From the IMG/VR virus record IMGVR_UViG_3300037585_001110, positions 1 to 20,244 of that record: 20,244 bases of DNA; one strand, 5' to 3'. Made by a program: the position numbers and the translations under genes. This DNA is from a virus. Of the stretch, positions 1 through 14,176 are shown one piece after another; the stretch's first letter is position 1, and each line of letters begins with the position of its first letter. The notes below the pieces were generated by a model that worked only from the letters and a program-made list of their open reading frames with translations, did not search any database and was not told where the DNA came from.

Positions 1-623
1 TTACCTTGAGACATAAGTCCACCAGTAACTTGCATACCACCTTTTAAGGTGTCACCTATGCCTTCTGTCATCTGTTGTTGAGCCGCTGCTCTAGCTTCTC
101 TAGCGGCGTTCATTTCCTGCACCGACATACCCATGAGAGTTTCAATCTTACCTTGTTGAGCTTGTCTACTAATAAGTTCACCCTCTCGTTCAAGACCTTG
201 TATTCTAGATGCTTCAGCCGCTCTAGCTTGTTGATTAAGTTGTTCTTGCTTGGCAATATCCGCAGACGAAGCCTGCGCGTCTAACGATGCTTGATTAGCC
301 ATAGTTTGGGCAAGGGCTGCTATACCGGATCCACCCGCTGAACCACGCATCTGCGTCATGATGTTAGCTTGCGACTGCATCTGTTGTTGCTTTTGGAATT
401 CCGAAGCTTGCTGGTTGACAGTTAGATCCTCCATTACGTTTTCCATATTGAGGTATGGGTTAGATGTATCTAAGTTTTCAAACTTATTTTTCTGTTTATC
501 TAATTCTGCTTTAGCAGCTTCAGCTTCCCTTTTAGCTCTCTTAGCTTTCACGCCACCATCAATAGCTTTATACAAGCCAGTAGCTGCACTCACCACTCCC
601 GTCGCTATTGTTATAAACGCCAT
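1..623 (-). CDS. Putative internal virion (ejection) protein, partial: C-terminus beyond window
   Basis: The reading frame opens at an ATG (621-623) and stays open for 207 codons to the left edge, so the stop and C-terminus are missing. The N-terminus (MAFITIATGVVSAATGLYKA) is a small-residue, weakly hydrophobic helix. It is followed by a Lys/Ala/Glu-rich helix (about residues 27-50), then long Ala/Gln-rich helical stretches with a Gly-rich break near residue 97 (GSAGGSGIAALAQ). A later segment has the pattern QQGKIETLMGMSVQEMNAAR. This composition and the order of elements recall gp14-like internal virion proteins of podoviruses, which leave the head with the DNA and help build the channel across the cell envelope. 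It is the last gene seen in the late operon and starts 3 bases after the cupin gene's stop. The family assignment rests on architecture only; a generic coiled-coil virion protein is the alternative. Confidence 0.6.
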   Translation of the reverse strand, partial: MAFITIATGVVSAATGLYKAIDGGVKAKRAKREAEAAKAELDKQKNKFENLDTSNPYLNMENVMEDLTVNQQASEFQKQQQMQSQANIMTQMRGSAGGSGIAALAQTMANQASLDAQASSADIAKQEQLNQQARAAEASRIQGLEREGELISRQAQQGKIETLMGMSVQEMNAAREARAAAQQQMTEGIGDTLKGGMQVTGGLMSQG

Positions 624-626
624 AGT

Positions 627-1124
627 CTATTTATTTTTAGTGTACTGTTCATATTCTTCATAACTTATAGCTACAATTTCTTTTTCTAATTTATCTAAAT
701 CTTCCGTATTACTAGGATTCTTATGTGTATTAAACCATATAGAATCTTCATGAGCATATAAAACTCTTTTAATACCTGGTGTTGATATTATAAAACAAGG
801 TGCTATATGATCTATTGTTTCATCCTCATTTACTACCGTTATTCTACCAGTAAGTAAAAAACACATGTGAAGATGTTTGTGTATAGCGCCAATAACCGCG
901 CTACCTTTTTTCATATGCATCTCCCTAATATATACACCATCCATAAAGTGGTGTTTAATAGGAATTACATCACTGTCTCTAACAATAGGCTTACTCTCTG
1001 TACCGGCAATAATATCTACTCCATTAGCTATTTCTTTTAACGTATTTTCTAAAGAAATAACTTTTGATCTGAAGTCTACAGATATTTCTGATTTAGTATT
1101 TTTTTGTAACTCGTTATCAGACAT
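627..1124 (-). CDS. Phage cupin-fold protein (165 aa), role unknown
   Basis: The N-terminal 45 residues are polar and probably helical. From about residue 50 the protein reads as a single beta-barrel of the cupin type: H58-H59, then VYIREM, then GAIHKHLHMCFLLTGRI (His 82, 84 and 86 with the following Gly 93), ITVVNEDETIDHIAPC, a Pro-Gly turn (TPGIKRVLYAHEDSIW, His 125) and a C-terminal acidic helix. The spaced His residues fit the metal-binding positions of cupin motifs 1 and 2, although the canonical Glu of motif 1 is not evident. Similar small cupin-like proteins are recurrent among tailed-phage structural genes, but their role is not established. It follows the 123-aa gene after 44 bases and precedes the internal virion gene by 3 bases, so it is probably co-expressed late. 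An enzymatic, sensing or purely structural role cannot be separated from sequence alone. Confidence 0.7.
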   Translation of the reverse strand: MSDNELQKNTKSEISVDFRSKVISLENTLKEIANGVDIIAGTESKPIVRDSDVIPIKHHFMDGVYIREMHMKKGSAVIGAIHKHLHMCFLLTGRITVVNEDETIDHIAPCFIISTPGIKRVLYAHEDSIWFNTHKNPSNTEDLDKLEKEIVAISYEEYEQYTKNK

Positions 1125-1168
1125 TAAATTTAATTATAGTATACTGATATAGTTACACTTTTTAAGCC

Positions 1169-1540
1169 TTATTTACTACTCTCAAATATGTCCATACCAA
1201 CACTGTATATTTCAGACTCAGCGGTTGAGTCGTTGACTAGCTTAGTACTTGCGAAATATCCTAGTATAGAACTTAGGTTAGCTTTGTTGTCTTTACTAAA
1301 CAATATAAACCTATTTAAACCGTTTACCTCTGTAAAGCTAAGACTGGAATCACATATAACTGTAAGTCCAGTTATCTCTCTTATTTGGCCTATCTCTGTT
1401 ATATTATCTGTTCCATCACCATCTGGATCAGTGGCAACGTTGAAACCTCCTTCCATTTCCGTGTTGACGAAATAAGCAGTATCCCCAACTTGACAAGATA
1501 CGTTTAACGGTTGTGTGAACGTGAGTGTTACTAGTGGCAT
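1169..1540 (-). CDS. Small conserved structural-type phage protein (123 aa)
   Basis: This short protein begins with a beta-strand pattern (MPLVTLTFTQPLNVSCQVGD) and the motif VGDTAYFVNTE. It has an acidic loop (DPDGDGTD, about residues 37-44), then EIGQIREITGL, and a C-terminal half with FILFSKDNKANLSSILGYFA and a terminal ESSK. I recognise this pattern, a QVGDxAY motif followed by FSKDNKANLSSxxGY and an ESSK end, from small proteins lying beside tail genes in marine phages, where it is usually annotated as structural or unknown. No signal peptide or membrane segment is visible. The gene starts 4 bases after the 702-aa gene's stop and belongs to the same transcript. A minor virion protein is the best guess; no specific function is claimed. 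Confidence 0.65.
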   Translation of the reverse strand: MPLVTLTFTQPLNVSCQVGDTAYFVNTEMEGGFNVATDPDGDGTDNITEIGQIREITGLTVICDSSLSFTEVNGLNRFILFSKDNKANLSSILGYFASTKLVNDSTAESEIYSVGMDIFESSK

Positions 1541-1544
1541 ATTA

Positions 1545-3653
1545 TTACGGGCTAGATTGAGTTATTATTGTATCAATGTTTAGAAGTATATCACTTGTCG
1601 TTGTCACGGTTTCAGCTAATAAATACCCTTGTATAGTAGCGGTGCCGCTTACAGAATACTGTATATCTAATGGTCTAATACCACTTTGAATGGTCACCGT
1701 ATCAGATGACGTAAAGCTCAAGGTGTCACCGCCGGAAAGCGTTTGGGCCGTGGCAACGGTTATACTTCTACCGGCGGGATTCACGGCTGTTATAGTTGTA
1801 AATTTTACGCCATCGCTATCCACTTCACCGGTTATACCAGGTCCAGTGACTTTCATTCCGACTTGCAAATTAGAACTATAACCAAGAAGTATAGTAGCTG
1901 AGTTGCTAACATTTCCTACAACGTCTTTGTCTACTGTCCCGGTTCCAGCGCCAGATACGATATCAATAGCACTTGGGTCGCCTCCGGTAGCAGATAAACT
2001 ACCGGAAGATGCTGTGGCCGTGATCTGAAAAGAAATTAAATTTGCATCGTTTTTTACAAACATTAAATCCGTATTGTCTGGTATAGCAGCAGCTGCGCTA
2101 AGAGTTAGAATGTTTTTGTATAAACTTTTAACAGTAGTATTGTGTGCTATTATAGACGCACCAGTTGAATTGCGTACATACATAATCATACCGGGTTCTA
2201 TATTAGTTGGTACCGGTGTTTTTAATAGCACTCTAACGCTAGAGCTGTCTCCATTACCACCTTCTGCGTGTATAACTCCTGAAGGTAAGTGTATATAGTT
2301 ACTACCAGTATATGGTTTTGGTCTGTGAAATATATGTGTTGAAGCAGCGAGAGCAAATGACACATAATTAGAATTAGTACTGTATGGTTTTATTGTAACT
2401 GTATTCAATCCGTATTGCGTTATGATAGCTTCACCGTCCTCATTTGGGACATCAGCGTGCAGTGAAGATGTTCCAGTGGCTGTTAACACAATGTCATATC
2501 TAGTGTTTACTAAAATATCGGGAAATTTCACAAAGTGAGTGGTTATACCATTTGAACCTATAACCGCGGATTCAGAATACGGGGCCGCTTGAAACTCCGT
2601 TGAAGTAAAGTTATAGTTTGGTGTAGTCGAAGCTGGGATAATACTATCTGTAGATTCTTTTTTCTGAAGTCGTATATCATAAGTAGCACCAACAGAACCT
2701 CTAACTGATATAGCTTCAGAACCACCTGTAAATGGAACTGACGGGCTGTATGCTATACTTCTAACTTGATCATCTGTTACGCCTTGGGTTTCTTTTATCT
2801 CATAATTTATAAAAGCTTGATGACCTATTTCGCAAAACTTAGTAAATGTACTTTGCGGATCTGGGTTTAAAGACGGATTAAGAGGCGGCGTGTATGATAT
2901 ATAAACAGTGAAAGAGGTTACCAGATTACTTGTGTACGTGTATTCTATTTCGCTAGAATAGTAATTACTATAATCATACCCTTGATTAGTTAACCCCTCA
3001 AAACTTGCCGTTACACCAACATAGTTATTTGCAGTAGCATCAGTTACAGCAAATGTTATTTCAGCAATAACAGTTGTAGCACCTTCATTTATGTTTCCAC
3101 TGTGAACACAATTTGGTTGAGTTGACACATCACCTGGAGTAATAGTCTCACTTATATTAGACAAGTCTGCTACAGTTACCGTTTGGACAGAACTGTAAGG
3201 CCATAGCGTTTTGAGACAGACTATTCTTTCTATAACATCTGTAGTAGGTCCTGGAACCTCGGTGTCTGGATCTATAATATCAGGTAGATCCGGCCTGTCA
3301 TCTATGTCTATATATATGGTATCATTAGCGGGCCATGTCTCTACACTAGCTGGAATAGCTGGCATAGCGTTGAGATACACCTTCGCGTTTACCGTGTTGG
3401 TTGGTTGACCAGCTATACCATTATTTGAAAACACGACCTTCTCAACTTCAGCGTCGACATTACCTCCCTCAAATATGTATTCACCAGCGGTGCCGCTAGT
3501 CACCTCCGTTGCTCCACTTATAATAAGATTCGCAGCTGATATAGCGTAACCGTAATTAGGGCTTATAGTTAAGTTAACGAACTGCCCTGAAGTTTCAAAA
3601 ACTGAAGGGATTGCCGTGATCGTGTTGTTCTGTGTTACTGTCCAGTTTGCCAT
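1545..3653 (-). CDS. Large beta-rich tail/appendage protein (702 aa), probable tail fibre or spike component
   Basis: The protein is rich in Thr, Ser, Val, Gly and Asn with almost no long helix, as expected of an extended beta-sandwich or fibre protein. The N-terminal ~110 residues look like an Ig-like or attachment module. A Pro/Asp-rich linker (RPDLPDIIDPDTEVPGP, about 118-134) separates it from the rest. The C-terminal third contains two similar units, about residues 478-534 and 588-650. Each has a GM motif (EPGMIMYV and QVGMKV), a loop, a strand pair (ILTLSAA and SITVATA) and a closing strand ending in F (TDLMFVKN and DTLSFTSS). It starts one base after the stop of the giant tail protein. 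Its position after the neck and tail genes suggests an exposed tail or receptor-binding part. No enzymatic motif (glycosidase, peptidase, intramolecular chaperone) is visible. A head-decorating fibre is the alternative. Confidence 0.6.
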   Translation of the reverse strand: MANWTVTQNNTITAIPSVFETSGQFVNLTISPNYGYAISAANLIISGATEVTSGTAGEYIFEGGNVDAEVEKVVFSNNGIAGQPTNTVNAKVYLNAMPAIPASVETWPANDTIYIDIDDRPDLPDIIDPDTEVPGPTTDVIERIVCLKTLWPYSSVQTVTVADLSNISETITPGDVSTQPNCVHSGNINEGATTVIAEITFAVTDATANNYVGVTASFEGLTNQGYDYSNYYSSEIEYTYTSNLVTSFTVYISYTPPLNPSLNPDPQSTFTKFCEIGHQAFINYEIKETQGVTDDQVRSIAYSPSVPFTGGSEAISVRGSVGATYDIRLQKKESTDSIIPASTTPNYNFTSTEFQAAPYSESAVIGSNGITTHFVKFPDILVNTRYDIVLTATGTSSLHADVPNEDGEAIITQYGLNTVTIKPYSTNSNYVSFALAASTHIFHRPKPYTGSNYIHLPSGVIHAEGGNGDSSSVRVLLKTPVPTNIEPGMIMYVRNSTGASIIAHNTTVKSLYKNILTLSAAAAIPDNTDLMFVKNDANLISFQITATASSGSLSATGGDPSAIDIVSGAGTGTVDKDVVGNVSNSATILLGYSSNLQVGMKVTGPGITGEVDSDGVKFTTITAVNPAGRSITVATAQTLSGGDTLSFTSSDTVTIQSGIRPLDIQYSVSGTATIQGYLLAETVTTTSDILLNIDTIITQSSP

Positions 3654-3654
3654 A

Positions 3655-6600
3655 TTAATCAGGTGTTGAATCCCATATTGTTGAACCGCCTTCGTTTCCA
3701 GTGTATGTTGTGCTAACGTTGTTCTCCACAGTCATAGTTATAGCTGTTGGATTATCATCAGATGATCCCGCCATAGTCATTGTAGCCATACCTATACCTT
3801 GAACGGAAAATTCTTTCTCATCTAAATTCGTAAGCGCTGTAGTATCTCCTGTTGGATAAGTAAACCATTTACCTTCCTTATTCTTGAATTCTAAATTTCC
3901 ACATGACTGCAAGTTGGTTGTAACGTTATCTACATACCAACCATTAACAGCATTCAAGTTAAAATACTCGTCGTCAGTTACAGATTGAGTAGTTACTCCA
4001 TCGTTTGTGGAAGATGCACCAGTTAACCAATAGTCTGCGCTAACTGTATCCCATTCGGTGATTTTAGCTTGAGAACCTTCGTAGTTTAATAAATTAAAAC
4101 TTTTCACGGCACCAGGGTTATCATTGAACAATAGAGTTATATCCGATTGATATTGCGTACCGTAGAAGTTATTTCTGGTAGTGTTTGTATGGTGTTTCCA
4201 TATCTGCCCATTATAAAACGTATAGAAATGATTGTTAAGACTTACACCTGTTTCTGGTATAAAAGACTTAAAGCACGCCCATCCTTTAGCTGGTCTTGAG
4301 TACGTTACCGTAAGTGACTCTGTGGGTTCTATTTGATGATTAAACCAACCTAAATATTTTTTCTTTATAGTTAAATTATACTCGTCTTTACGCTCATCAT
4401 ACATACCTATACTCTGCCATACCTCAGGCGTGAAAGTGTCCGCAAAATAATCTGCCATACCTTTGTCTGATATCGATACTATACCCTCGCTAGATAAAGA
4501 ACATACAGCCCCTCTAGCCGCATCTGAGAAGTACACGTGATATGGTGTAAACGCTACAGATTCTGGATTTGTTGAAACGCCAAATTCTCCTTGATATGGG
4601 GTTGCGTCACCAACTACCGCGTTACTTGCTATAAGTTGAGGATTACCAGCGGCACTATACAACGCGTCTTTATTTGTTACGGCGCGTAAAATTCGATCTT
4701 CACAGAACATAATAAGCTGAGTCTCTCTATTAAGTAGTTTTTGTATACTACCGTGTACTGGATTAAGATCTTTTGTTATAGATTCAGCTGCTATAAATTG
4801 ATTTGTCTCGTTAATCCCTGAATTAGAATTGTATATACCGGACCATATAATACCATGCTTACGTCTTTCTTCTTTAACTTGCTCGGCTAATACGGTTGAG
4901 GCTTTAACACCGTTATCCATTTGAGGTGCATTGTAGTCGTCTCTAATTCTATCGGACTCTACGCCATTCCCAAACGTCCAACAGTTATTCCAATCTAAAA
5001 TATGTGTTTGTCTAAATAACTTATGATTTTGAGCCATAGTACCTACTGTGCCGGCGATACGAATTAACGTTGAACTAGAGGTCTCTGCTACTTTAGCTGT
5101 GAAATCATAATATTTTCTTTTTGAAAAAGTAATCTCTGTACCAGCCGCTATACTCGAGGTTAAAGCAGGAGTTACAATATACCTTGCTCCAATCGCCATT
5201 AGGAACTCGCCCATTCCCCAGTTATCAGTAGCCACGCCGGTCACTGTGTGGGTTGTACCGTCATTTACAAATGTTGTACCGTTAGGTACATACTCTTCTT
5301 TTGTGTCTTCTGTTAAAGTAAGAGGTATAAGCCCGCTAGCTTGATAGTAAATATCTATATCTACACTTTCTTTTGGAACAGTCTCCCATATAGCAGGGTT
5401 GTTTGTAAAGTCACTGTGACCTGTAAGGCGAGTGTAAGGAACCATAAGTTCTATTACGTCTTGACCTTTGAAATCATGGCGTAAAGCACGTCTAAATCTA
5501 TTATCGTCTTTATCATTAACCGCCCATGGGTTTGTACCTCTTGTAGGATCATAACCGCTAGGTCCACTACCTATAGGCGGGTCTACCATTATAGTCCATC
5601 TTTGACGTATTTGCCAACCTCTGAATTTATCTTTGTCTGCAGAAGGAGTAAAGTCAAGGTCTGGTGACCAGTTAGTGTTTCTAATGCCAAAAGCCCCGGT
5701 ATGTATATTCGCAAACGATTCCCAGTAGTTATCATTATTATACCCATGTGTATGACCCGCAAAACTCTGTACCGTATATACCGTTTCGTCTGGATCTCTT
5801 TGAAACCTAAACTTAGCGCCTGGTGTAACTAAATCGCGCATAAATTGAGCGGCTTCTTTTCTTCTATCTCCGTCGCAGTTTTCTAATAGATGCGGGAATC
5901 CACCGGCATCTACTCCACTGTTCCAATTTCCGCCAGTGTAGCTCGGGCTAAATCCAGACCAAGATATATCCATACACCGTCCACCATTCCATACACCTCT
6001 ACTTGGCTGGCCATTATGCAACTTCATGCTGCTGTTACCCGTTTGATCATCTTGACTATACCCACCGATAGCAGGTGATCCTTCTGGTCTATCCGCTGGA
6101 TGACCTCCCGGACCAGTCATTCCAGGTAAGTTGTTTTGGTTTAAAGCAGACCAATCCCCCGTAGCTGGGTGAATACCCCCATTAAAAGTATTTCCAGGTC
6201 TATCCTTACGGTCTAGAACGTAACCAGAGTCACCTTTCTTACTAGTTAAAGAGAACGACGTGGCGCCATCTATAAAAAAGCACTCTTTCTCTTGAACACC
6301 CTCCCAGAAATCTCTTGAGTCATTGATGCAATTTAAAGCATTAACAGGCTTTTTAAATCTAAAACACTTTAAATTAAACACATTGTTAGTAGAGCTTGCA
6401 TCACCACCATCCGCCCACCAAAAAGCATCTTCACTAGCGAAGTCTACGTCACCAGCTGATATACTTCCACTAGCCCCGTAATTATCTTCAAACCATGGGT
6501 AGTTATACTCCGTTGGGTGTCTACCAGCATCTTCCGCAGCAACAGGATCTGCTGAGTTATCTCCGATTTTATGCCAACTGTCTGCATTAGTAGATCCAGC

Positions 6601-9492
6601 GGGTCTACATATTGCGTTAATAGGAGTTTCTTGACCAATAGCTTGGTTTGCGTAACCACCGTTATGTATGTAACGCAATCCCTCAGATCTATCTATAACT
6701 AACTCTTCATCTTGATTTTGGAGATTAGCAACTAACAGTGCATCTCTAAATATTTTACAGAAAAATCTACCATCAAATTCTGGTTTATTTTTTACTTCTC
6801 CTGAAAATAAAGAGAGAGTTACCCCATCTACTCTACCTGCCCACGTATCGTTAGTAGAGACAAACAGCGCGTCTTCTTTAAATTTAGTCGCAACGTTTAT
6901 CGTCCAAAAATCATCTCCACTAATTACATTTGTAACACTATATTCAAATGACGAATTATTACCTTGAGCTAATCTTAATGTTAAAGAATCAAAATTATTA
7001 AGAGCATCCACATCATCACCAAAAGTGCTTGTAAAAACATCCGCTTGAACCGTGATAAAAGTGGTGTCTTGTAGTGGATATCCCTCTGTTTGATTACCAA
7101 GTTTGTCATTACCTGTGTTTAAAACAGTTCCAAGGATTTGCCTCTCTGTTTTTATATAATCAGGAGCTTCACCTTCTATAGCTAGTATTTTATATCTAGC
7201 CTTTGCGCGTACAGCTTGCTCAGTTCCGTGAGACTGCTTGAGTTCTAAAAAGGTTTCTTCATCCACCTTATTTCTATCAGATGAAGGGAATGATATCCAT
7301 ATATTTCCATCATGAGCGTCGTACCACCTATCCATAGCTAGGGTGTAATACTCAACAGAGGTTTCTTTTATATACCAAGTGTAGTATTTAGCCCATGCAG
7401 GTACTTCAGTACCCATCCCAAGCTTAGCGCTTATCCTATTTCTTTTATCACAAACACTTTTACCAACGGTTATTGTAGCTCCCTCACTTGTAAGCACTGG
7501 AGTTTCTCTACCATATTTGTCGCTATACACAACACCCACTTGATATGTTCGTTGGGTTTTAACTGATGGTACCGCGAACCCAGCGTCTATACCACTAACA
7601 GAATCAGACTCTAAACTTACCTGTATAATAGGATCTTTAAATATAGTTCTATTCTGTAAATAATTTCCGTATATTAATCTATTAGCGCTAATCTCTTGAG
7701 CTAGCGCTTGCCTTGGTACGTTATCATATGGTCTTAGTAGTTGATTTGACGCGACCACTGCATGAATCATATCTGTTGTAACCTTATATTCCCCTCTTTT
7801 ACCACCATCACCATCAATTAAATCCGGCCATGCAGGATCATTGTCTGTCCTCTTGAGAGTTTTTACTGTGTATACAGTTGGGTTGTTAGTTTCCTTATAT
7901 AATAAATCTATTTCAATTACATCATCAGGTATAACATACTCGTCATAGTGATAGTACTTAAGTTTAAGACTTTTAAGAGCATTAACCATTCCAAGGTTAT
8001 AACCATGCTTTGGATGGAACTCATATTCACTAGGTAGAAATGCCACTTGAGACCATGGTGCAAAAGAAGAATACTCTCCATCTATATATTTATACCTATA
8101 AGAAAACCTAGGGAATTTAAACTCAAATAAGGAATCTTTGTCTTCTAATCTTACTCTCCATCCTATAGATGTGTCTTCTAAACTAGCTGCTAAAGATAAT
8201 ATTTTAAGTGAAAACCCGGTGCTAGAGATACCGTTAGAATTTGTGACATCGGATGCCACTACCTCCACCCTTATATCGTAATCTTCATATATACCTACGT
8301 CAACTTGAGGGTCTTCTTCAGATAATATAAGTACATCGGTTTCTCTAAAATCAACAGCTTCATTAAACGTAACCCCTGTTATAGTATCTCCGACGTTATA
8401 TGCGAATAGATTAAAATCCCATGTTGTACTAACATTTGTAGCTATACCTGCCGCTGTCTGTCTTTCATCTGAAGTCCTAGACATTGAGAGTTCAAGCGGT
8501 TGAGTTGGAGCCTTTTTAATAACCGTTATGTGGCTTTCATCCACCCATACTGCTCTTTTATTATCTGGAAAAGTAGCAATATCATATGATACATCTTCAA
8601 GAGACCCGACCGTTGGTTTATCTTTAGTAAGTCTAGTGTGGAATAAATCTGTATCACCAGTAAATGTATTAGATGTATCTGCGGTAGGTACACTCGCGTA
8701 AGCTACAACACCCGCGCCTGACAGATGTTCCGTACCACCGGTACCTGCTATAGATCTAGGTATATTTATTTTTTTAGGTTCAAATAGATTATCAGTCCAA
8801 AATAAAAAGTCATCAAGAACATTAACACCTGTTATAAGGTTATTTTTCTTAAAGTTCAAAACTCTTGGAGCGCTGAATACAAGTTCTACACCATTCGTAA
8901 CCGTCATGTATTCACTTAGAACAACTTTCCATCCACCATCATAGTAAATATCTCTCACGAAAATAGTGTCGTTTTCGTCATATGAGCTATTAGTAACAAT
9001 CATACCACGTCTAATACCAGTTCTATTAACTGTCGTAGAAGGTGAGGATGAAGGATCTACTACGTAGCTAAGAGTCTGCCCTGTTGCTGATGCTCCATTA
9101 TAAGTCGTAGACACTTTGTATATATCTACGAAGACGTACCTGTGCCTTTCTGTTACTGTGTTATATTCTACTATGTAGTCTTTTTGTATCGCAGGAGATC
9201 CACTTGCGTTATTCAAATCACCAGCTGAAACAAAATAGTATATCTTATCTTTAGCAGCAGATGCAATAGAACCTACCACTGTAGCTGTCGTAGGTATATT
9301 ATATTCGCTACCAGTAAACATGGTGTTACGTATGGTGTTACCCATTAACACCTGGGCTGCGCCTACGTTAGAACCTTCTGATGTAGCTATCTCTATATTC
9401 GTCGCGTCTCTATAATCACCAGATGGAACAACTCTCTCATCGAGATCTTTATTCATCTTAGCGTTAGAGAACGTTCGTTTTAACTCTGCCAT
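3655..9492 (-). CDS. Giant tail protein (1945 aa), P22 gp10-like tail stabilisation / crAss-like muzzle family
   Basis: The N-terminus contains AKMNKDLDERVVPSGDYRDATNIEI, split here as MNKDLDERVV and DYRDATNIEI. This fits the pattern with which crAss-like tail stabilisation (muzzle) proteins begin. Other family-like motifs are NRLIYGNYLQNRTI near residue 600, YSDKYGRETPVL near 657, and a C-terminal propeller-like segment with EDRILRAVTNKDALY (about 1597), VYFSDAARGAVCSLS (about 1654) and ISDKGMADYF (about 1679). These proteins cap the neck and form or seal the distal short tail, controlling DNA exit. The length far exceeds P22 gp10 (472 aa). Part of the excess is a Gly/Asn/Asp/Pro-rich region at about 1096-1311, unlike the flanks. 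It starts 3 bases after the second ring gene. The ATG is chosen because the conserved N-terminal motif begins only about 10 residues later. The family call is solid in pattern; the exact position in the virion is inferred. Confidence 0.75.
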   Translation of the reverse strand: MAELKRTFSNAKMNKDLDERVVPSGDYRDATNIEIATSEGSNVGAAQVLMGNTIRNTMFTGSEYNIPTTATVVGSIASAAKDKIYYFVSAGDLNNASGSPAIQKDYIVEYNTVTERHRYVFVDIYKVSTTYNGASATGQTLSYVVDPSSSPSTTVNRTGIRRGMIVTNSSYDENDTIFVRDIYYDGGWKVVLSEYMTVTNGVELVFSAPRVLNFKKNNLITGVNVLDDFLFWTDNLFEPKKINIPRSIAGTGGTEHLSGAGVVAYASVPTADTSNTFTGDTDLFHTRLTKDKPTVGSLEDVSYDIATFPDNKRAVWVDESHITVIKKAPTQPLELSMSRTSDERQTAAGIATNVSTTWDFNLFAYNVGDTITGVTFNEAVDFRETDVLILSEEDPQVDVGIYEDYDIRVEVVASDVTNSNGISSTGFSLKILSLAASLEDTSIGWRVRLEDKDSLFEFKFPRFSYRYKYIDGEYSSFAPWSQVAFLPSEYEFHPKHGYNLGMVNALKSLKLKYYHYDEYVIPDDVIEIDLLYKETNNPTVYTVKTLKRTDNDPAWPDLIDGDGGKRGEYKVTTDMIHAVVASNQLLRPYDNVPRQALAQEISANRLIYGNYLQNRTIFKDPIIQVSLESDSVSGIDAGFAVPSVKTQRTYQVGVVYSDKYGRETPVLTSEGATITVGKSVCDKRNRISAKLGMGTEVPAWAKYYTWYIKETSVEYYTLAMDRWYDAHDGNIWISFPSSDRNKVDEETFLELKQSHGTEQAVRAKARYKILAIEGEAPDYIKTERQILGTVLNTGNDKLGNQTEGYPLQDTTFITVQADVFTSTFGDDVDALNNFDSLTLRLAQGNNSSFEYSVTNVISGDDFWTINVATKFKEDALFVSTNDTWAGRVDGVTLSLFSGEVKNKPEFDGRFFCKIFRDALLVANLQNQDEELVIDRSEGLRYIHNGGYANQAIGQETPINAICRPAGSTNADSWHKIGDNSADPVAAEDAGRHPTEYNYPWFEDNYGASGSISAGDVDFASEDAFWWADGGDASSTNNVFNLKCFRFKKPVNALNCINDSRDFWEGVQEKECFFIDGATSFSLTSKKGDSGYVLDRKDRPGNTFNGGIHPATGDWSALNQNNLPGMTGPGGHPADRPEGSPAIGGYSQDDQTGNSSMKLHNGQPSRGVWNGGRCMDISWSGFSPSYTGGNWNSGVDAGGFPHLLENCDGDRRKEAAQFMRDLVTPGAKFRFQRDPDETVYTVQSFAGHTHGYNNDNYWESFANIHTGAFGIRNTNWSPDLDFTPSADKDKFRGWQIRQRWTIMVDPPIGSGPSGYDPTRGTNPWAVNDKDDNRFRRALRHDFKGQDVIELMVPYTRLTGHSDFTNNPAIWETVPKESVDIDIYYQASGLIPLTLTEDTKEEYVPNGTTFVNDGTTHTVTGVATDNWGMGEFLMAIGARYIVTPALTSSIAAGTEITFSKRKYYDFTAKVAETSSSTLIRIAGTVGTMAQNHKLFRQTHILDWNNCWTFGNGVESDRIRDDYNAPQMDNGVKASTVLAEQVKEERRKHGIIWSGIYNSNSGINETNQFIAAESITKDLNPVHGSIQKLLNRETQLIMFCEDRILRAVTNKDALYSAAGNPQLIASNAVVGDATPYQGEFGVSTNPESVAFTPYHVYFSDAARGAVCSLSSEGIVSISDKGMADYFADTFTPEVWQSIGMYDERKDEYNLTIKKKYLGWFNHQIEPTESLTVTYSRPAKGWACFKSFIPETGVSLNNHFYTFYNGQIWKHHTNTTRNNFYGTQYQSDITLLFNDNPGAVKSFNLLNYEGSQAKITEWDTVSADYWLTGASSTNDGVTTQSVTDDEYFNLNAVNGWYVDNVTTNLQSCGNLEFKNKEGKWFTYPTGDTTALTNLDEKEFSVQGIGMATMTMAGSSDDNPTAITMTVENNVSTTYTGNEGGSTIWDSTPD

Positions 9493-9495
9493 ACG

Positions 9496-10410
9496 TTAGT
9501 GTTTAATTTGTTTAGAGCTTCCTCTAAGTACTTGCGTTAATTCTCCTAACTTGAGGTTCGATAATCTTAATTTTGCTTTTCTTGTTTCTGCAAATTTTTC
9601 TTTCTTAATCTGAGATAGCAATGCTTGGTTACTATCTTTTCTAGCCAAAAGAACTCCATATAATATATGTTTATAAACGGCTTCTTCCGCTAATTTAGGA
9701 ACTAATGTACTGTCTAAATCTAAGGTTCCATTGGTATTAGAGGTAATAAGTCCATCACTTATGTACTTAAGTATAACCGTTTTACCACTCATATTAGAAC
9801 TAAAGTGAAACTTACCGGACGTTTGGTTTATAAAAAATGATCCATTAGCTTGAGCGTGCTCTGGATCTACACCATATCTACCACCCACTAACCTACCGTA
9901 TTCGTCATCTATTTCATCTGAATCTATAGAACCTATATCAGTACTAGTTAGAGAGCCGTACGCATCCCAAGTGTCAGAATCTTCATCACCCGTTAATTTA
10001 TCAAGTTCATTTGTAAGCGTAAACCCTCCCGAGTCATTTACCGTAGTGCTAATGTCTAAAGGATTAGAAGTATCTCTCACTGGATATAATATCCTCTCAA
10101 CACCATTACCATCAGACCATGAGAGTTTAACGTAGTTTACAAAATCAGATGGCATAACTAGGACAAGGGTTGATGGTACTGTAACCTCCCAATCTTTAGT
10201 TGATCTCAGCGTATCATAACTTAACTCCTGTAAAGCCCTTGTTGCGTGAAAAGTTATATCAGGCAACGAAACCTTCTCGCATAGTTTATCTTGCCCAACA
10301 TACGTGGCGTTAAACGCATCAATAACTTCTACTAAACTTATATATCTATAATCCCCGTGGCTTCCAGAGTCAGCGTAGTAATTCCGATTGTTTGATTCTA
10401 GTATAGCCAT
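9496..10410 (-). CDS. Putative neck/ring (head-tail connector) protein 2 (304 aa)
   Basis: The N-terminal part is a polar stretch followed by YISLVEVIDAFNATYVGQDKL and a helix (FHATRALQELSYDTLRSTKD, about residues 54-73). Next come strands with VTVPSTLVLVMPSDFVNYVKL and an acidic, Ser/Asp-rich middle (about 125-185, including DSDEIDDEYGRL). A short sandwich follows (GKFHFSSNMSGKTVILKYISDGL), and the C-terminal helical part has LAEEAVYKHILYGVLLARKDS and ends in a basic tail. The order (helix bundle, strands, a VILKYISDGL-type strand, then a hydrophobic helix) is the one seen in P22 gp4-like connectors and crAss-like ring proteins that stack beneath the portal. It starts 3 bases after the 241-aa gene and is followed after 3 bases by the giant tail protein, the expected location. 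The specific ring number is not determined. Confidence 0.6.
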   Translation of the reverse strand: MAILESNNRNYYADSGSHGDYRYISLVEVIDAFNATYVGQDKLCEKVSLPDITFHATRALQELSYDTLRSTKDWEVTVPSTLVLVMPSDFVNYVKLSWSDGNGVERILYPVRDTSNPLDISTTVNDSGGFTLTNELDKLTGDEDSDTWDAYGSLTSTDIGSIDSDEIDDEYGRLVGGRYGVDPEHAQANGSFFINQTSGKFHFSSNMSGKTVILKYISDGLITSNTNGTLDLDSTLVPKLAEEAVYKHILYGVLLARKDSNQALLSQIKKEKFAETRKAKLRLSNLKLGELTQVLRGSSKQIKH

Positions 10411-10413
10411 TTA

Positions 10414-11139
10414 TTATTGATTTTGTATTGTTTGTTCACCAGTTTCCTTCTGAGCCACTAATTGAGACAAACCAGGTTTATTCATTACTATACCAGCGAG
10501 ATCCAGTATTTTGTAAACTAAAGTATCTTCTTCAGATAGATGAAGTTCAAAATTCTGTGCCGTTGCATCTGATGAGTTATAAAGAGCTTTACCATTCACT
10601 ACAACGTATGTCCAGTTTACAGTAGCCGGAACTCTGAAACACTCTACAGTTATTCCACCAAACACTTGATTAGAGCTACCTGAATATACCGCTATATCCT
10701 CTCCAGAAACAAATCCATCAGAGTATATAGGTCCTTGATTTAAACTAGTGGATATATGTCTCACTGATCTCTTAAATCTATTAGCTTCGTTTATAGACAT
10801 CTTATGGCAAACTTGACCATTTAAAAATACTCTACCAGTATGATACACTGTGCCAGCGGTTACAGTTGCTGGAAACATCGTTCCACCTGCCACCTCTTCA
10901 ATTGTTTGAAACGGAGCTAGTTTTTTACCTAACATCTCTGTCACACTAGTCTCATCTTGTTCAGGATTAGGGGATGGATCTAGTCTATCCCTTATTCCCT
11001 TTAGATAAAAATAAGACTCAAATATCTGCATTTGAGCCTGATTAGCAAGTAGGTTATATTCTTGAGGTGTTATATAACCCCTCTGTTCTTTATTAGCTAA
11101 AGCTAATACCCTTTGATATACTGTATCTACATTTACCAT
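10414..11139 (-). CDS. Putative neck/ring (head-tail connector) protein 1 (241 aa)
   Basis: The protein opens with a helical region containing VDTVYQRVLALANKEQRGYI followed by TPQEYNLLANQAQMQIFESY (residues ~3-43), a pattern I associate with connector proteins of crAss-like and related Bacteroidota podoviruses. A beta-rich centre follows (VFLNGQVCHKMSINEANRFK and GGITVECFRVPATVNWTYVV). The C-terminal helix contains FELHLSEEDTLVYKILDLAG and ends in a Gln/Glu-rich tail. It lies directly upstream of the 304-aa connector and downstream of the head genes, as expected for a protein joining portal and tail. There is no enzymatic motif. The 11-base gap to the 162-aa gene and the A/T-rich leader (ATAAGTAAGT before ATG) argue for co-transcription without a Shine-Dalgarno. 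A minor tail protein is the alternative. Confidence 0.6.
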   Translation of the reverse strand: MVNVDTVYQRVLALANKEQRGYITPQEYNLLANQAQMQIFESYFYLKGIRDRLDPSPNPEQDETSVTEMLGKKLAPFQTIEEVAGGTMFPATVTAGTVYHTGRVFLNGQVCHKMSINEANRFKRSVRHISTSLNQGPIYSDGFVSGEDIAVYSGSSNQVFGGITVECFRVPATVNWTYVVVNGKALYNSSDATAQNFELHLSEEDTLVYKILDLAGIVMNKPGLSQLVAQKETGEQTIQNQ

Positions 11140-11150
11140 ACTTACTTATT

Positions 11151-11639
11151 TTATATACTAGCTGTAAACACCTCTACTGTTCCAGCGTTAACACCCGGGT
11201 CTACTATAATACTCTCTAAATCCGTTAAAGCCGTGACTATTGTCGCAGAGCTATCATTAGCATGTACAGCTTCATCCGGTGTACCCATAACAAAACTTCT
11301 TCCGGCTTCTAATAAGTGGGTTACAGATAAATCTGCAGCTGAGTTGTTTTCGTCTGAATCGAGTTGTAGAGATATATTAACAGAGTTGGTGTCATCTAAA
11401 TTAGTTATACGGATATATTTTACCAACTCTTTGTCTAAAACCCCATCCGCTATAGCTGTTGTGGATTTAAACACTAGCACAGTAGCATCGTCGTCAGCTG
11501 CTATAGTCACTAATCTTTTAGATATATCTTTTACGCTAGATACAGTGAAAGTGTTTACTGAACCGTGATCATACCCGTTAAGTGTAATAGACTCTGCTAG
11601 TGATACTGTTAATGTTGCTGGTGTTACTGTACTTGCCAT
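11151..11639 (-). CDS. Small beta-rich virion protein (162 aa), possible capsid decoration or head-fibre protein
   Basis: I place the start at the ATG at 11637-11639 (MASTVTPATLTVSLAESITL). The frame extends upstream to a TTG at 11661-11663, but that codon falls inside the hairpin at 11661-11682. The ATG also has an A-run just upstream (AAAAAAAGAATT), the usual type of leader in this genome. The protein is a series of short Thr/Val/Ser strands with an acidic loop (QLDSDENNSAADLS), then VTHLLEAGRSFVMGTPDEAV and a final strand series ending VEVFTASI. No hydrophobic signal, metal site or catalytic motif is seen. Its composition and place between head and connector genes suggest a surface-attached capsid or neck protein. 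I do not recognise a named family, so the role is inferred from context only. Confidence 0.6.
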   Translation of the reverse strand: MASTVTPATLTVSLAESITLNGYDHGSVNTFTVSSVKDISKRLVTIAADDDATVLVFKSTTAIADGVLDKELVKYIRITNLDDTNSVNISLQLDSDENNSAADLSVTHLLEAGRSFVMGTPDEAVHANDSSATIVTALTDLESIIVDPGVNAGTVEVFTASI

Positions 11640-11660
11640 AATTCTTTTTTTGTAGTTTCG

Positions 11661-11682
11661 CAACCACCCCGAAGGGCAGTTG
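11661..11682 (-). other. UUCG-tetraloop RNA hairpin in the gap between two structural genes
   Basis: On the minus strand the sequence reads CAACTGCCC, TTCG, GGGTGGTTG. This makes a 9-bp stem (two adjacent G-U pairs in its middle) closed by C-G around a UUCG loop, the unusually stable cUUCGg form. On the plus strand the same pairs become mismatches, so the element is built for minus-strand RNA. It lies between the 284-aa gene's stop and the 162-aa gene's start. It is not followed by a U tract but by CGAAACTAC and an A-run, so it is not a standard intrinsic terminator. A weak terminator, an RNase processing or stability boundary, or a translational insulator are all possible. Confidence 0.55.
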
Positions 11683-11697
11683 CATCACTATTGATTA

Positions 11698-12552
11698 TTA
11701 ATTTAATCGTTTTTCTATATTGGAGTATATCTCCATTCCCTCATCAGTCTTAAACCAAGCGGCTAAGGCATTATAAGGATGTTCGTCGAAAGGAACAGTC
11801 ATTAGTTTTCTATCATTAGAACCCCAATTAAATGTTCTTTGGTCAGAGGATAGTTTAATAATCCCCATCTCTGTAGCTTTAATACCAAAGTTCCTAAGCA
11901 CTACGTTATCATCATTAAGCAGTTCTAAGAACAGTCTAGGATTTTTCTTAGCATATAGTAGCAAGTCTCTTTTAAGTTCCTTAGAACTCATCTGAGATAC
12001 TTTAGAACCAATCTCAACTCTCATGACCGCTTCCGCCATGTCAATATCTAGATTCTTAGCCGCCATTAAAGCCTCTACTTCAAACTCTAACCAGTCTAAT
12101 TGGTTTTCTGCGATTTTAATTGGCTTATGTTCAAAGTAAATACCTTTTCTACCAGGGTGATACAAGGATAAAAGCTTTTGCAGCACCGTCTCTTCTTTAG
12201 GTACGAAAAGAGCACCGTTTCTAAATACTATATGGGTTAATCTTTGATCGCCTTTCATTTCGTCAACAAAACACGTTTGTTGATTTTTGCAATATTTCAG
12301 CTCTCTTTCATACCCTTTCTCTTTATCAAACCAGTACACATCCGCGGATTTAATCATTCTAGATAACGGTTTTTCACGTGATCTTAAATAATATGTTCTA
12401 TCTTTAATCTCCCAAGTATTTTGCTTAGGCAATTCTTTTGTTATAACAGGTTGAGGTTTTGGTTCCGGTTTTGATTGAGGAGCTTCAACTATAACTGTTT
12501 CTTCTACGTAGGGTTCTTGAACCTCTACTTTTTTTGTTTGCTTTTTAGCCAT
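11698..12552 (-). CDS. Conserved-type head-module protein of unknown function (284 aa)
   Basis: The N-terminal ~45 residues are a Lys/Glu/Pro/Val-rich, probably disordered tail (KPEPKPQPVITKELPK). The folded part begins around NTWEIKDRTYYLRSREKPLS and includes ELKYCKNQQTCFVDEMKGDQ with two Cys, a strand ending in FRNGALFVPKEE, LLSLYHPGRKGIYFEHKP, a helix LDWLEFEVEALMAAKNLDID, then KNPRLFLELLNDDNVVLRNF and IKLSSDQRTFNWGSNDRKLM. I know no function for this protein. Comparable proteins sit just after the major capsid gene in related flavobacterial phages (from memory, not checked). It is flanked by the terminator at 12582-12611 and the hairpin at 11661-11682, so its mRNA level may be separated from its neighbours. 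No membrane segment or signal peptide is visible. A minor capsid, assembly or cargo protein is a reasonable inference. Confidence 0.6.
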   Translation of the reverse strand: MAKKQTKKVEVQEPYVEETVIVEAPQSKPEPKPQPVITKELPKQNTWEIKDRTYYLRSREKPLSRMIKSADVYWFDKEKGYERELKYCKNQQTCFVDEMKGDQRLTHIVFRNGALFVPKEETVLQKLLSLYHPGRKGIYFEHKPIKIAENQLDWLEFEVEALMAAKNLDIDMAEAVMRVEIGSKVSQMSSKELKRDLLLYAKKNPRLFLELLNDDNVVLRNFGIKATEMGIIKLSSDQRTFNWGSNDRKLMTVPFDEHPYNALAAWFKTDEGMEIYSNIEKRLN

Positions 12553-12581
12553 AATATAATATAATAAAAAAAATTAATATA

Positions 12582-12611
12582 AAACTACCCCTCCCGAAGG
12601 AGAGGTAGTTT
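12582..12611 (-). terminator. Intrinsic terminator after the major capsid gene (13-bp stem, UUCG loop, U-rich tail)
   Basis: The minus-strand RNA has AAACTACCTCTCC, TTCG, GGAGGGGTAGTTT: thirteen consecutive pairs with only one G-U and a cUUCGg tetraloop. The downstream sequence on the same strand is TATATTAATTTTTTTTATT, a U-rich tail. It starts 14 bases after the capsid stop and ends 29 bases before the next ATG. This suits partial termination, giving abundant capsid mRNA with reduced read-through into the genes beyond, and it may also protect the 3' end. It is the best-supported regulatory element in the window. Confidence 0.85.
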
Positions 12612-12625
12612 CACCAAATATGATT

Positions 12626-14176
12626 CTACTTCATCAACATGAAGTTGTTTGCACCTTGCGTTACCAAGCAGCGCTCAGATAACATATGGATTTCCATAGC
12701 ATCAAGCGCAGATGTAGAAGCACCAACCGAACCAGTTGTCCACGTCTTCATTTTACGATTATCAGTAGCAGAAGCCCTGTAACGAACGTGTAGGAAAGGA
12801 CGCTTAAGATTCTTACCTAACGCTTGATCGTATACGGTAGAAGTTCCAGCTGGAACAAATATACCTCTGATAGCACTTGCACCTGCAGCAGCGTTAATAC
12901 CACCACGTGTAGCTAGATCGTTCAAGTAACGGAAATCTGACTTGTAGAAATCGTAAGATCCACGACGGAATCCAGAGAATCCTAAGTTAAGAGCCATCTC
13001 TTCGTTGTTCTCAAACACTCCGTAAGAAGTACCACCAGCACCGTAAGAGTTCATTGAAGCAAGCATGTCGTCGATCGCTAACGATGTAGCGCGATTAACA
13101 AATACCATATTTTCTTCAATTGCTCCTTGCTTATCAAACTCTGCTAAGATAGCATCAAACTCTGCTAGATCAGTAGCAGCGTTTACGCCGGTAACACCCG
13201 ATGTTACGTTTCCACGAGTTTCGATAGCATCGAATAAACCTTGAGTACCAGTTGCAGAACCGTTAGCTAAACCTAAGTGAGCATCTGTCAAATCGGCGTT
13301 TGCGTTGATCGAACCATAGATAGATGCAGCAGCAGATGCAGCAGCAGGACCACCAATCTTAGCTTCTAACATAGCCATCTCTAAGTAATCAGTAAAACGA
13401 AGTCTAGTTTCAGACTCGGCTTTTAAATACCACATATAACCTGATTGACCCTCTTCTGTAGCCACTTCTACCCAGCCAATTCTAGAAGCATCAGATCCTG
13501 ACACTACGTAGTTATCTTTCATGATAATTGGCTTGTTAGTAAACGTCTTGAAGCTAGGTTGATTAGATCCACGAGTTGTTGCGCCATCGTAGTTATCACC
13601 CTTAGCGAACTCAGAACCGTAAACTAGAATAGTAATAGACTGCGCAGTTGATCCAGCAGCGTCATCAAAGAATCCAGCACTATTTAAGTCATCGTGACCG
13701 TAAACAGCTACTTGAACTTGGTCGTGAGTATCACCAGTTGTTCCTCGAGCTGCAGTAGTAACAATACACTTACAAACAACACCAGAAGTGCTGTTAGCTA
13801 GAAGAAGTAAATCTCCTGGTCTAATACCGTGATCAGTACCTATATCGTTTCCGTCAATATCAGTTTCAATCTCAATAATACCACCGTCAGCGTGAGCATC
13901 ATCAGTAACGTGACCTTTGTAAGATAGGTGTAATCTACCTTGCTCAGACCATACTACTTGATCAGCAGACATAGCCTCTTCAGCCCCAACTTGCGAAAGA
14001 AAACCAGAGATTGTTCGTGGACCGTAAATCTCAGCCTCTTTTTCCATAAGGTCTGGTATATATTGTTGACCCCATCCCGCGTTCGACGCGTCAGCGAGGT
14101 CTAAGTAGTTCGATGTTAACGCTTGCTGGATCGGTGCCGGCTGAACGTTTAACAAAGTTCCATTTGTAATTGCCAT
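12626..14176 (-). CDS. Major capsid protein (516 aa, HK97-fold family inferred)
   Basis: The N-terminal region contains NYLDLADASNAGWGQQYIPD followed by LMEKEAEIYGPRTISGFLSQ and VGAEEAMSADQVVWSEQGRL (residues ~23-82). I recognise this arrangement from major capsid proteins of crAss-like phages and related marine podoviruses. Later motifs include a central Ala-rich helix (GGPAAASAAASIYGSINANA), a helix after FDAILAEFDKQGAIEENMVF, SGFRRGSYDFYKSDFRYLND, and a C-terminal LSERCLVTQGANNFMLMK. The size is normal for HK97-type capsids without a separate delta domain. It stands between the scaffold candidate and a strong terminator, as expected for the most abundant virion protein. Arg codons are mostly CGN (14 of 19 by my reading, 10 of them CGT), whereas AGA/AGG appears readily in the portal and giant tail genes, consistent with selection for high expression. 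The leader before ATG is A/T only (ATTAAGAAAAA). Confidence 0.88.
   Translation of the reverse strand: MAITNGTLLNVQPAPIQQALTSNYLDLADASNAGWGQQYIPDLMEKEAEIYGPRTISGFLSQVGAEEAMSADQVVWSEQGRLHLSYKGHVTDDAHADGGIIEIETDIDGNDIGTDHGIRPGDLLLLANSTSGVVCKCIVTTAARGTTGDTHDQVQVAVYGHDDLNSAGFFDDAAGSTAQSITILVYGSEFAKGDNYDGATTRGSNQPSFKTFTNKPIIMKDNYVVSGSDASRIGWVEVATEEGQSGYMWYLKAESETRLRFTDYLEMAMLEAKIGGPAAASAAASIYGSINANADLTDAHLGLANGSATGTQGLFDAIETRGNVTSGVTGVNAATDLAEFDAILAEFDKQGAIEENMVFVNRATSLAIDDMLASMNSYGAGGTSYGVFENNEEMALNLGFSGFRRGSYDFYKSDFRYLNDLATRGGINAAAGASAIRGIFVPAGTSTVYDQALGKNLKRPFLHVRYRASATDNRKMKTWTTGSVGASTSALDAMEIHMLSERCLVTQGANNFMLMK

Follow-up and report, generated by a model that had tools for sequence, protein, structure and literature searches.

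In the window, as we call the whole 20,244-base virus record analysed here, the gap behind a gene for a 284-aa protein holds a two-tier hairpin whose stems covary strongly among relatives and which is not followed by the U tract of an intrinsic terminator. The hairpin in the gap before the same gene reads as a conventional terminator. The two had been presented originally as a matched pair with UUCG loops; they are instead different devices, and the UUCG loop is not diagnostic, since loops vary in both gaps. On balance, we consider it rather more probable than improbable that the first hairpin acts as a terminator, that a new transcription unit begins after it and that the second hairpin serves as a post-transcriptional boundary within that unit.

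Genomic setting of the two hairpins

The window covers part of the genome of an uncultured podovirus whose relatives include the Flavobacterium elemo phages, Maribacter phage Panino and Cellulophaga phage phi38:1. By capsid, its nearest annotated relatives are uncultured podovirus ctfjg026, Panino, the elemo phages and Cellulophaga phages, with a capsid identity to any annotated relative of at most 46%. As the nearest capsid relatives are phages of Maribacter, Flavobacterium and Cellulophaga, the virus presumably infects a member of the Bacteroidota. The minus strand, on which all features described below lie, carries in order the genes for terminase, portal, a scaffold-like protein, capsid (516 aa), the 284-aa protein and a 162-aa protein, then ring/adaptor genes, a very long structural gene and tail-fibre genes; ‘scaffold’ and ‘ring’ are labels taken from position and from the annotation of relatives.

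The major capsid protein gene (12626–14176) matches PHROG 13704, a virion structural protein family (E = 3.6e-90), and in tblastn searches the structural proteins of Flavobacterium, Cellulophaga and Maribacter phages. The 284-aa gene (11698–12552; PHROG 34748) lies between both hairpins and is kept between the capsid and ring genes in isolates. The 162-aa gene (11151–11639), located between the gap-2 element and the ring/adaptor gene, gave no PHROG match and varies among relatives. The region downstream of gap 2 appears as an insertion hotspot, occupied in the window by the 162-aa gene, which has similar starts in two relatives (L061 and L094), and in most other insert-bearing loci by a gene of ~54 aa, KSKGLGDTIEKITKATGIK. 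Elsewhere in the window, a 165-aa protein encoded at 627–1124 matches the short tail fibre PHROGs 12032 and 24280.

As originally predicted, the hairpins occupy the longest gaps of the structural operon, gap 1 (73 nt) after the capsid gene and gap 2 (58 nt) after the 284-aa gene, and both are present where they had been placed, far more stable than chance. Only four CUUCGG sequences occur in the window on either strand, and no known RNA family, tRNA or tmRNA was found in it. Both hairpins were compared across a sample of about 160 relatives.

The junction between the capsid and 284-aa genes

Hairpin 1 (12579–12614), identified by folding, a terminator scan and the gaps of relatives, has a 16-bp stem and a cUUCGg loop at 12595–12598. 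The original prediction had correctly described its 13-bp core (12582–12611), which A-U and G-U pairs lengthen to 16 bp. The predicted fold has a free energy of –24.9 kcal/mol (z = –6.0), and none of 200 shuffled sequences was equally stable. Directly 3′ of the stem stands AUUAAUUUUUUUU, within a U-rich tail (12561–12578) that overlaps an AT-rich motif. The hairpin therefore shows the stable G+C-rich stem and following U tract of an intrinsic terminator.

The gaps of relatives display the same arrangement. Each of the 86 distinct gap-1 sequences, that of the window included, contains a hairpin at least as stable as –8 kcal/mol, and the median U count over the 12 nt 3′ of the G-C stem is 8. Isolates likewise carry terminators after their capsid genes. 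The stems comprise 24 distinct inner-arm pairs, many of unrelated sequence, and the loops vary too, so that the terminator form alone is kept. In agreement with the original reading, we predict with high confidence that hairpin 1 is an intrinsic terminator ending the scaffold-capsid transcription unit.

The AT-rich, promoter-like motif TTAATTTTTTTTATTATATTATATT (12553–12580), delineated with a weight matrix, lies directly 5′ of the ATG of the 284-aa gene. Leaders of this gene are U-rich (64% T and 35% A in the last 20 nt), and capsid leaders are A-rich (61% A). A weight matrix built from the 284-aa leaders scored above 10 bits in 62 of 127 scaffold leaders compared with ~1% of shuffles, and matched none of 131 major capsid protein leaders and none of 106 gap-2 leaders. 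In all six long contigs, the best site was the 284-aa start, and the scaffold start was also found in two; the few other matches in the genome were weaker than those at these two starts. Isolates often carry a TAnnTTTG box, the flavobacterial promoter consensus (PMC9723704), before the scaffold, 284-aa and ring genes. As the 284-aa and scaffold leaders share the motif and isolates carry TAnnTTTG there, we regard the AT-rich motif as a candidate promoter. In many relatives, the motif TTATTAATTATTATTATATTATATTATG abuts the ATG of both genes, and could possibly represent a late promoter that leaves a very short leader or none. The window’s own scaffold leader (before 15348) resembles a more divergent version of the motif. 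A T7-type RNA polymerase that might use the motif was not detected, although the control of that search was silent.

A two-tier hairpin at the 3′ end of the 284-aa gene

A covariance model (R1) delimits the whole conserved element in gap 2 to 11636–11700, comprising the stop codon of the 284-aa gene, a two-tier hairpin, an A-rich leader and the next start codon. It scored 64.9 bits on the window (E = 3.9e-12), where it gave no second match of comparable score. According to both the fold and the relatives, hairpin 2 extends over 11653–11690. An outer helix of 4 bp, UAGU (11687–11690) with ACUA (11653–11656), closes a 2x2 internal loop, above which an inner helix of 10–11 bp (11659–11684) carries a cUUCGg loop at 11670–11673. 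The fold reaches –20.5 kcal/mol (z = –5.3), again unmatched in 200 shuffles. The original prediction captured the core of this structure at 11661–11682, yet it missed the outer helix and the full length of the inner one. It rightly noted that an A run follows, before the next ATG at 11639; where an intrinsic terminator would have its U tract, the window reads GAAACUACAAAAAAAG.

Among 120 distinct gap-2 sequences, the hairpin begins a few nucleotides past the 284-aa stop codon, and typically consists of an outer helix of 4–6 bp, a small A-rich internal loop and an inner helix of 10–12 bp. The internal loop is often asymmetric, with near-invariant As on its 3′ side; in L091, L149, L153 and L157 it is lost, leaving single uninterrupted stems. 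Terminal loops are mostly UACG (36 of the 120) or UUCG (35), with UGCG, UCCG and others also present, and the stems represent 39 distinct inner-arm pairs. In 101 gap-2 hairpins, the 12 nt 3′ of the stem contain a median of 3 U and 7 A, which bears out the view that hairpin 2 is not a conventional terminator.

Forty-two two-tier relatives were aligned with MAFFT on sequence alone. Paired bases filled 96.0% of the alignment cells, against 35–54% with the partners slid, a percentage that partly reflects the choice of these sequences for their two-tier form. The compensatory changes do not depend on that choice: two-sided changes numbered 79 compared with 26 in shuffles, and 0 of 500 shuffles reached as many. 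The inner helix is paired in 100% of cases, with compensatory change in eight of ten pairs. In the outer helix, 88.9% are paired over the 42 relatives and three of six pairs are compensated, including a co-change from AU to GC in 16. The original prediction had staked itself on stem conservation in relatives, and this conservation proves to be strong.

G-U pairs make up 16% of gap-2 pairs, and the sense strand folds better than its complement in 100 of 101 hairpins. The strong covariation with many G-U pairs argues that selection acts on RNA, and the frequent G-U pairs together with the better sense-strand folding place the constraint on the mRNA. For the latter two reasons, a DNA-level inverted repeat, such as an operator or recombination site, was rejected as the main reading. 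A terminator for the opposite strand was rejected as well, as on the plus strand the T run precedes the hairpin.

To place the element in its context, two fixed-sequence patterns were sought in viral contigs; they favour particular stem sequences and thus show context, not total abundance. They matched at least 188 loci, with one copy each among the matches listed, and all 183 listed matches with enough upstream sequence place the element 7–15 nt past the final sense codon of the 284-aa gene. The covariance model found one strong copy in each of six contigs of 52–64 kb and no copy in the five isolate genomes. Repeated, genome-wide processing sites were discarded because of this single strong copy per contig. 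The distance from hairpin to ATG has a median of 13 nt both where the ring gene follows (60 loci) and where an inserted gene does (30 loci). The element is therefore tied to the 284-aa gene at its 3′ end, and any gene that follows receives the same short A-rich leader. In F. johnsoniae, A at –3, –6, –12 and –13 promotes initiation, and translation benefits when A-rich initiation regions are unpaired (PMC6847099). The simplest reading of the 13-nt A run that follows hairpin 2 (11640–11652) is a translation-initiation region of Bacteroidota type for the next gene, and not a piece of a defective terminator.

The same junction is built differently in other lineages. At gap 2, isolates carry a U-tract hairpin, and a TAnnTTTG box precedes their ring gene; in Panino and phi18:3, inserted genes come first and the box lies beyond them. 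A marine subset of 16 loci (L015, L016, L022, L042, L057, L062, L069, L080, L104, L109, L116, L141, L145, L147, L155 and L160) combines a U-tailed hairpin with a conserved block of ~45 nt, GCTAACCTTTC...TTATTATGTAACTATAATATAGTAAAAT, which is probably a promoter or operator. The block contains the palindrome ACTATAATATAGT. Another subset of six loci (L047, L049, L060, L102, L130 and L151) has no hairpin and a conserved leader ending in TTATTAATTATTAAAC. The leader of these six, TAACCGTTTCTT..AAGCACAAACC..CTTAATTCA, is unstructured and precedes other inserted genes. On the tree of the 284-aa protein, the gap-2 types are clustered but do not form single clades; this tree used automatic labels, of which the U-tail labels of L091, L134, L149 and L157 are doubtful. 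In the 16-locus subset, by contrast, L057, L104, L109 and L155 were placed by eye.

Judged by consensus motifs, gap 2 in the window’s group contains no promoter-like motif. With terminators, promoters or structure at this one junction, it looks like a boundary in every lineage, and in the window’s group this boundary looks to be made of RNA structure alone. The original suggestion that the 284-aa gene is expressed separately gains indirect support from the terminators of isolates at both junctions, often with a promoter after them, and from the AT-rich motif after hairpin 1. A literature search for a phi38:1 transcriptome yielded no usable paper.

Possible roles of hairpin 2 and comparison with known systems

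According to the model we favour, hairpin 1 would end the scaffold-capsid unit and a new unit would start just after it, probably at the AT-rich candidate promoter, and would cover the 284-aa gene as well as the ring and tail genes. Within this second transcript, hairpin 2 would cause no termination; where the 284-aa cistron ends, it would form a post-transcriptional boundary, whether or not an endonuclease cuts there. The 3′ end of the upstream segment would thereby be protected, or the downstream segment would begin at a defined 5′ end, capped by the hairpin and provided with a short A-rich site on which ribosomes can land, or both. Such a boundary would allow the two mRNA segments to differ in abundance and half-life. 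We infer this action on mRNA stability or processing by exclusion and by analogy. Two points weigh against it: an RNA serving translation only, without nuclease action, would show equal conservation, and there is one element per genome, in contrast to the many R sites of T7 and the many CUUCGG hairpins of T4.

A special case of this model, possible but in our view doubtful, is that hairpin 2 is a site for RNase III or a similar endonuclease of the T7 R-site kind, where a cut in the internal loop would leave the A-rich leader at the 5′ end of the downstream segment. The irregular stem, with a small and often asymmetric internal loop between two helices and near-invariant As on the 3′ side of that loop, is consistent with such a site. 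T7 R1.1 provides a precedent, as this 60-nt hairpin with a 4/5 internal loop lies between genes 1.0 and 1.1 and is cleaved by RNase III (PMC6121014). However, a total of 15–20 bp is short for RNase III, the internal loop is missing in the four relatives with uninterrupted stems, and there is one copy per genome.

Somewhat less probable still is a role in translation, in which the hairpin would stop ribosomes from running on past the 284-aa stop codon and keep the next A-rich start single-stranded. The constant 13-nt A-rich leader, whatever gene comes next, and the unpaired initiation regions of F. johnsoniae (PMC6847099) agree with this proposal. Yet the starts of the major capsid protein, ring and 304-aa genes, which are also tightly packed, have no hairpin, and the position of the element follows the 284-aa stop codon and not any one downstream gene.

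That hairpin 2 is a terminator working without a U tract is improbable, even though it occupies the same place as the true terminators of isolates and of the U-tailed subset. The U tract is absent, and the gap has no promoter-like motif from which the essential ring and tail genes could be restarted, whereas the U-tailed relatives carry a promoter-like block. A hairpin that lacks both a U tract and a nearby promoter is thus unlikely to terminate fully, as this would leave the ring and tail genes unexpressed. Least probable, though only by a little, is a translational operator for a phage protein, for example the ring protein or the 284-aa product: a single copy directly 5′ of a structural gene in most relatives, with As kept on the 3′ side of the internal loop, would fit, but stems (39 distinct inner-arm pairs) and loops (many forms) differ greatly among relatives, and the downstream gene is not constant.

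We propose, only tentatively and as a less probable claim than the model itself, that the element represents a new single-copy structured RNA family of uncultured marine Bacteroidota podoviruses, in which processing at a covarying UNCG hairpin would create the 5′ end of the ring and tail mRNA and replace a terminator-promoter boundary. Few studies have dealt with how Bacteroidota podoviruses express their late genes. If the proposed boundary is real, related phages solve one gene junction in at least two ways, by terminator plus promoter or by RNA structure, and transcriptional versus post-transcriptional control of the ratios of capsid, ring and tail proteins becomes directly testable. The gap-2 element, which is compact, is also a candidate part for Flavobacterium genetics, either as an insulator or for stability.

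Intercistronic hairpins in phage mRNA are already known as a kind; the gap-2 element gave no Rfam match at gathering score, with only weak matches far below it, and we found no published description of it. CUUCGG intergenic hairpins are common in phages (PMC8948821), and the gene 32 transcript of T4 owes stability to a hairpin of this type at its 5′ end (as cited in PMC8948821). Both window hairpins have the form (X)n CUUCGG (Y)n with complementary arms, and gap-2 relatives often have UACG. Hairpin 2 resembles these phage hairpins, including that of the gene 32 leader, as a very stable UUCG-loop hairpin between phage genes. It differs in its two-tier form, its UNCG-like loop, its presence as one copy in a fixed place at the 3′ end of a single gene and its Bacteroidota host.

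With T7 R sites, hairpin 2 shares the form of an intercistronic hairpin with an internal loop within a polycistronic phage mRNA, as seen in the 2x2 loop of the window and in most relatives. Its helices are shorter and its internal loop is smaller than those of R sites, and, whereas R sites occur in several copies per genome, there is one strong match per genome in the six contigs of 52–64 kb. In T7, the intrinsic terminator Tφ immediately follows the gene for the major capsid protein. Hairpin 1 likewise stands directly after the capsid gene, although a host-type RNA polymerase, and not one of T7 type, is presumed to act here. A parallel with the same gene order is offered by the Flavobacterium elemo phages and Cellulophaga phi38:1, which carry a terminator plus a TAnnTTTG promoter at the same junctions; at gap 2, the window’s group has neither U tail nor TAnnTTTG promoter, and bears a covarying hairpin instead.
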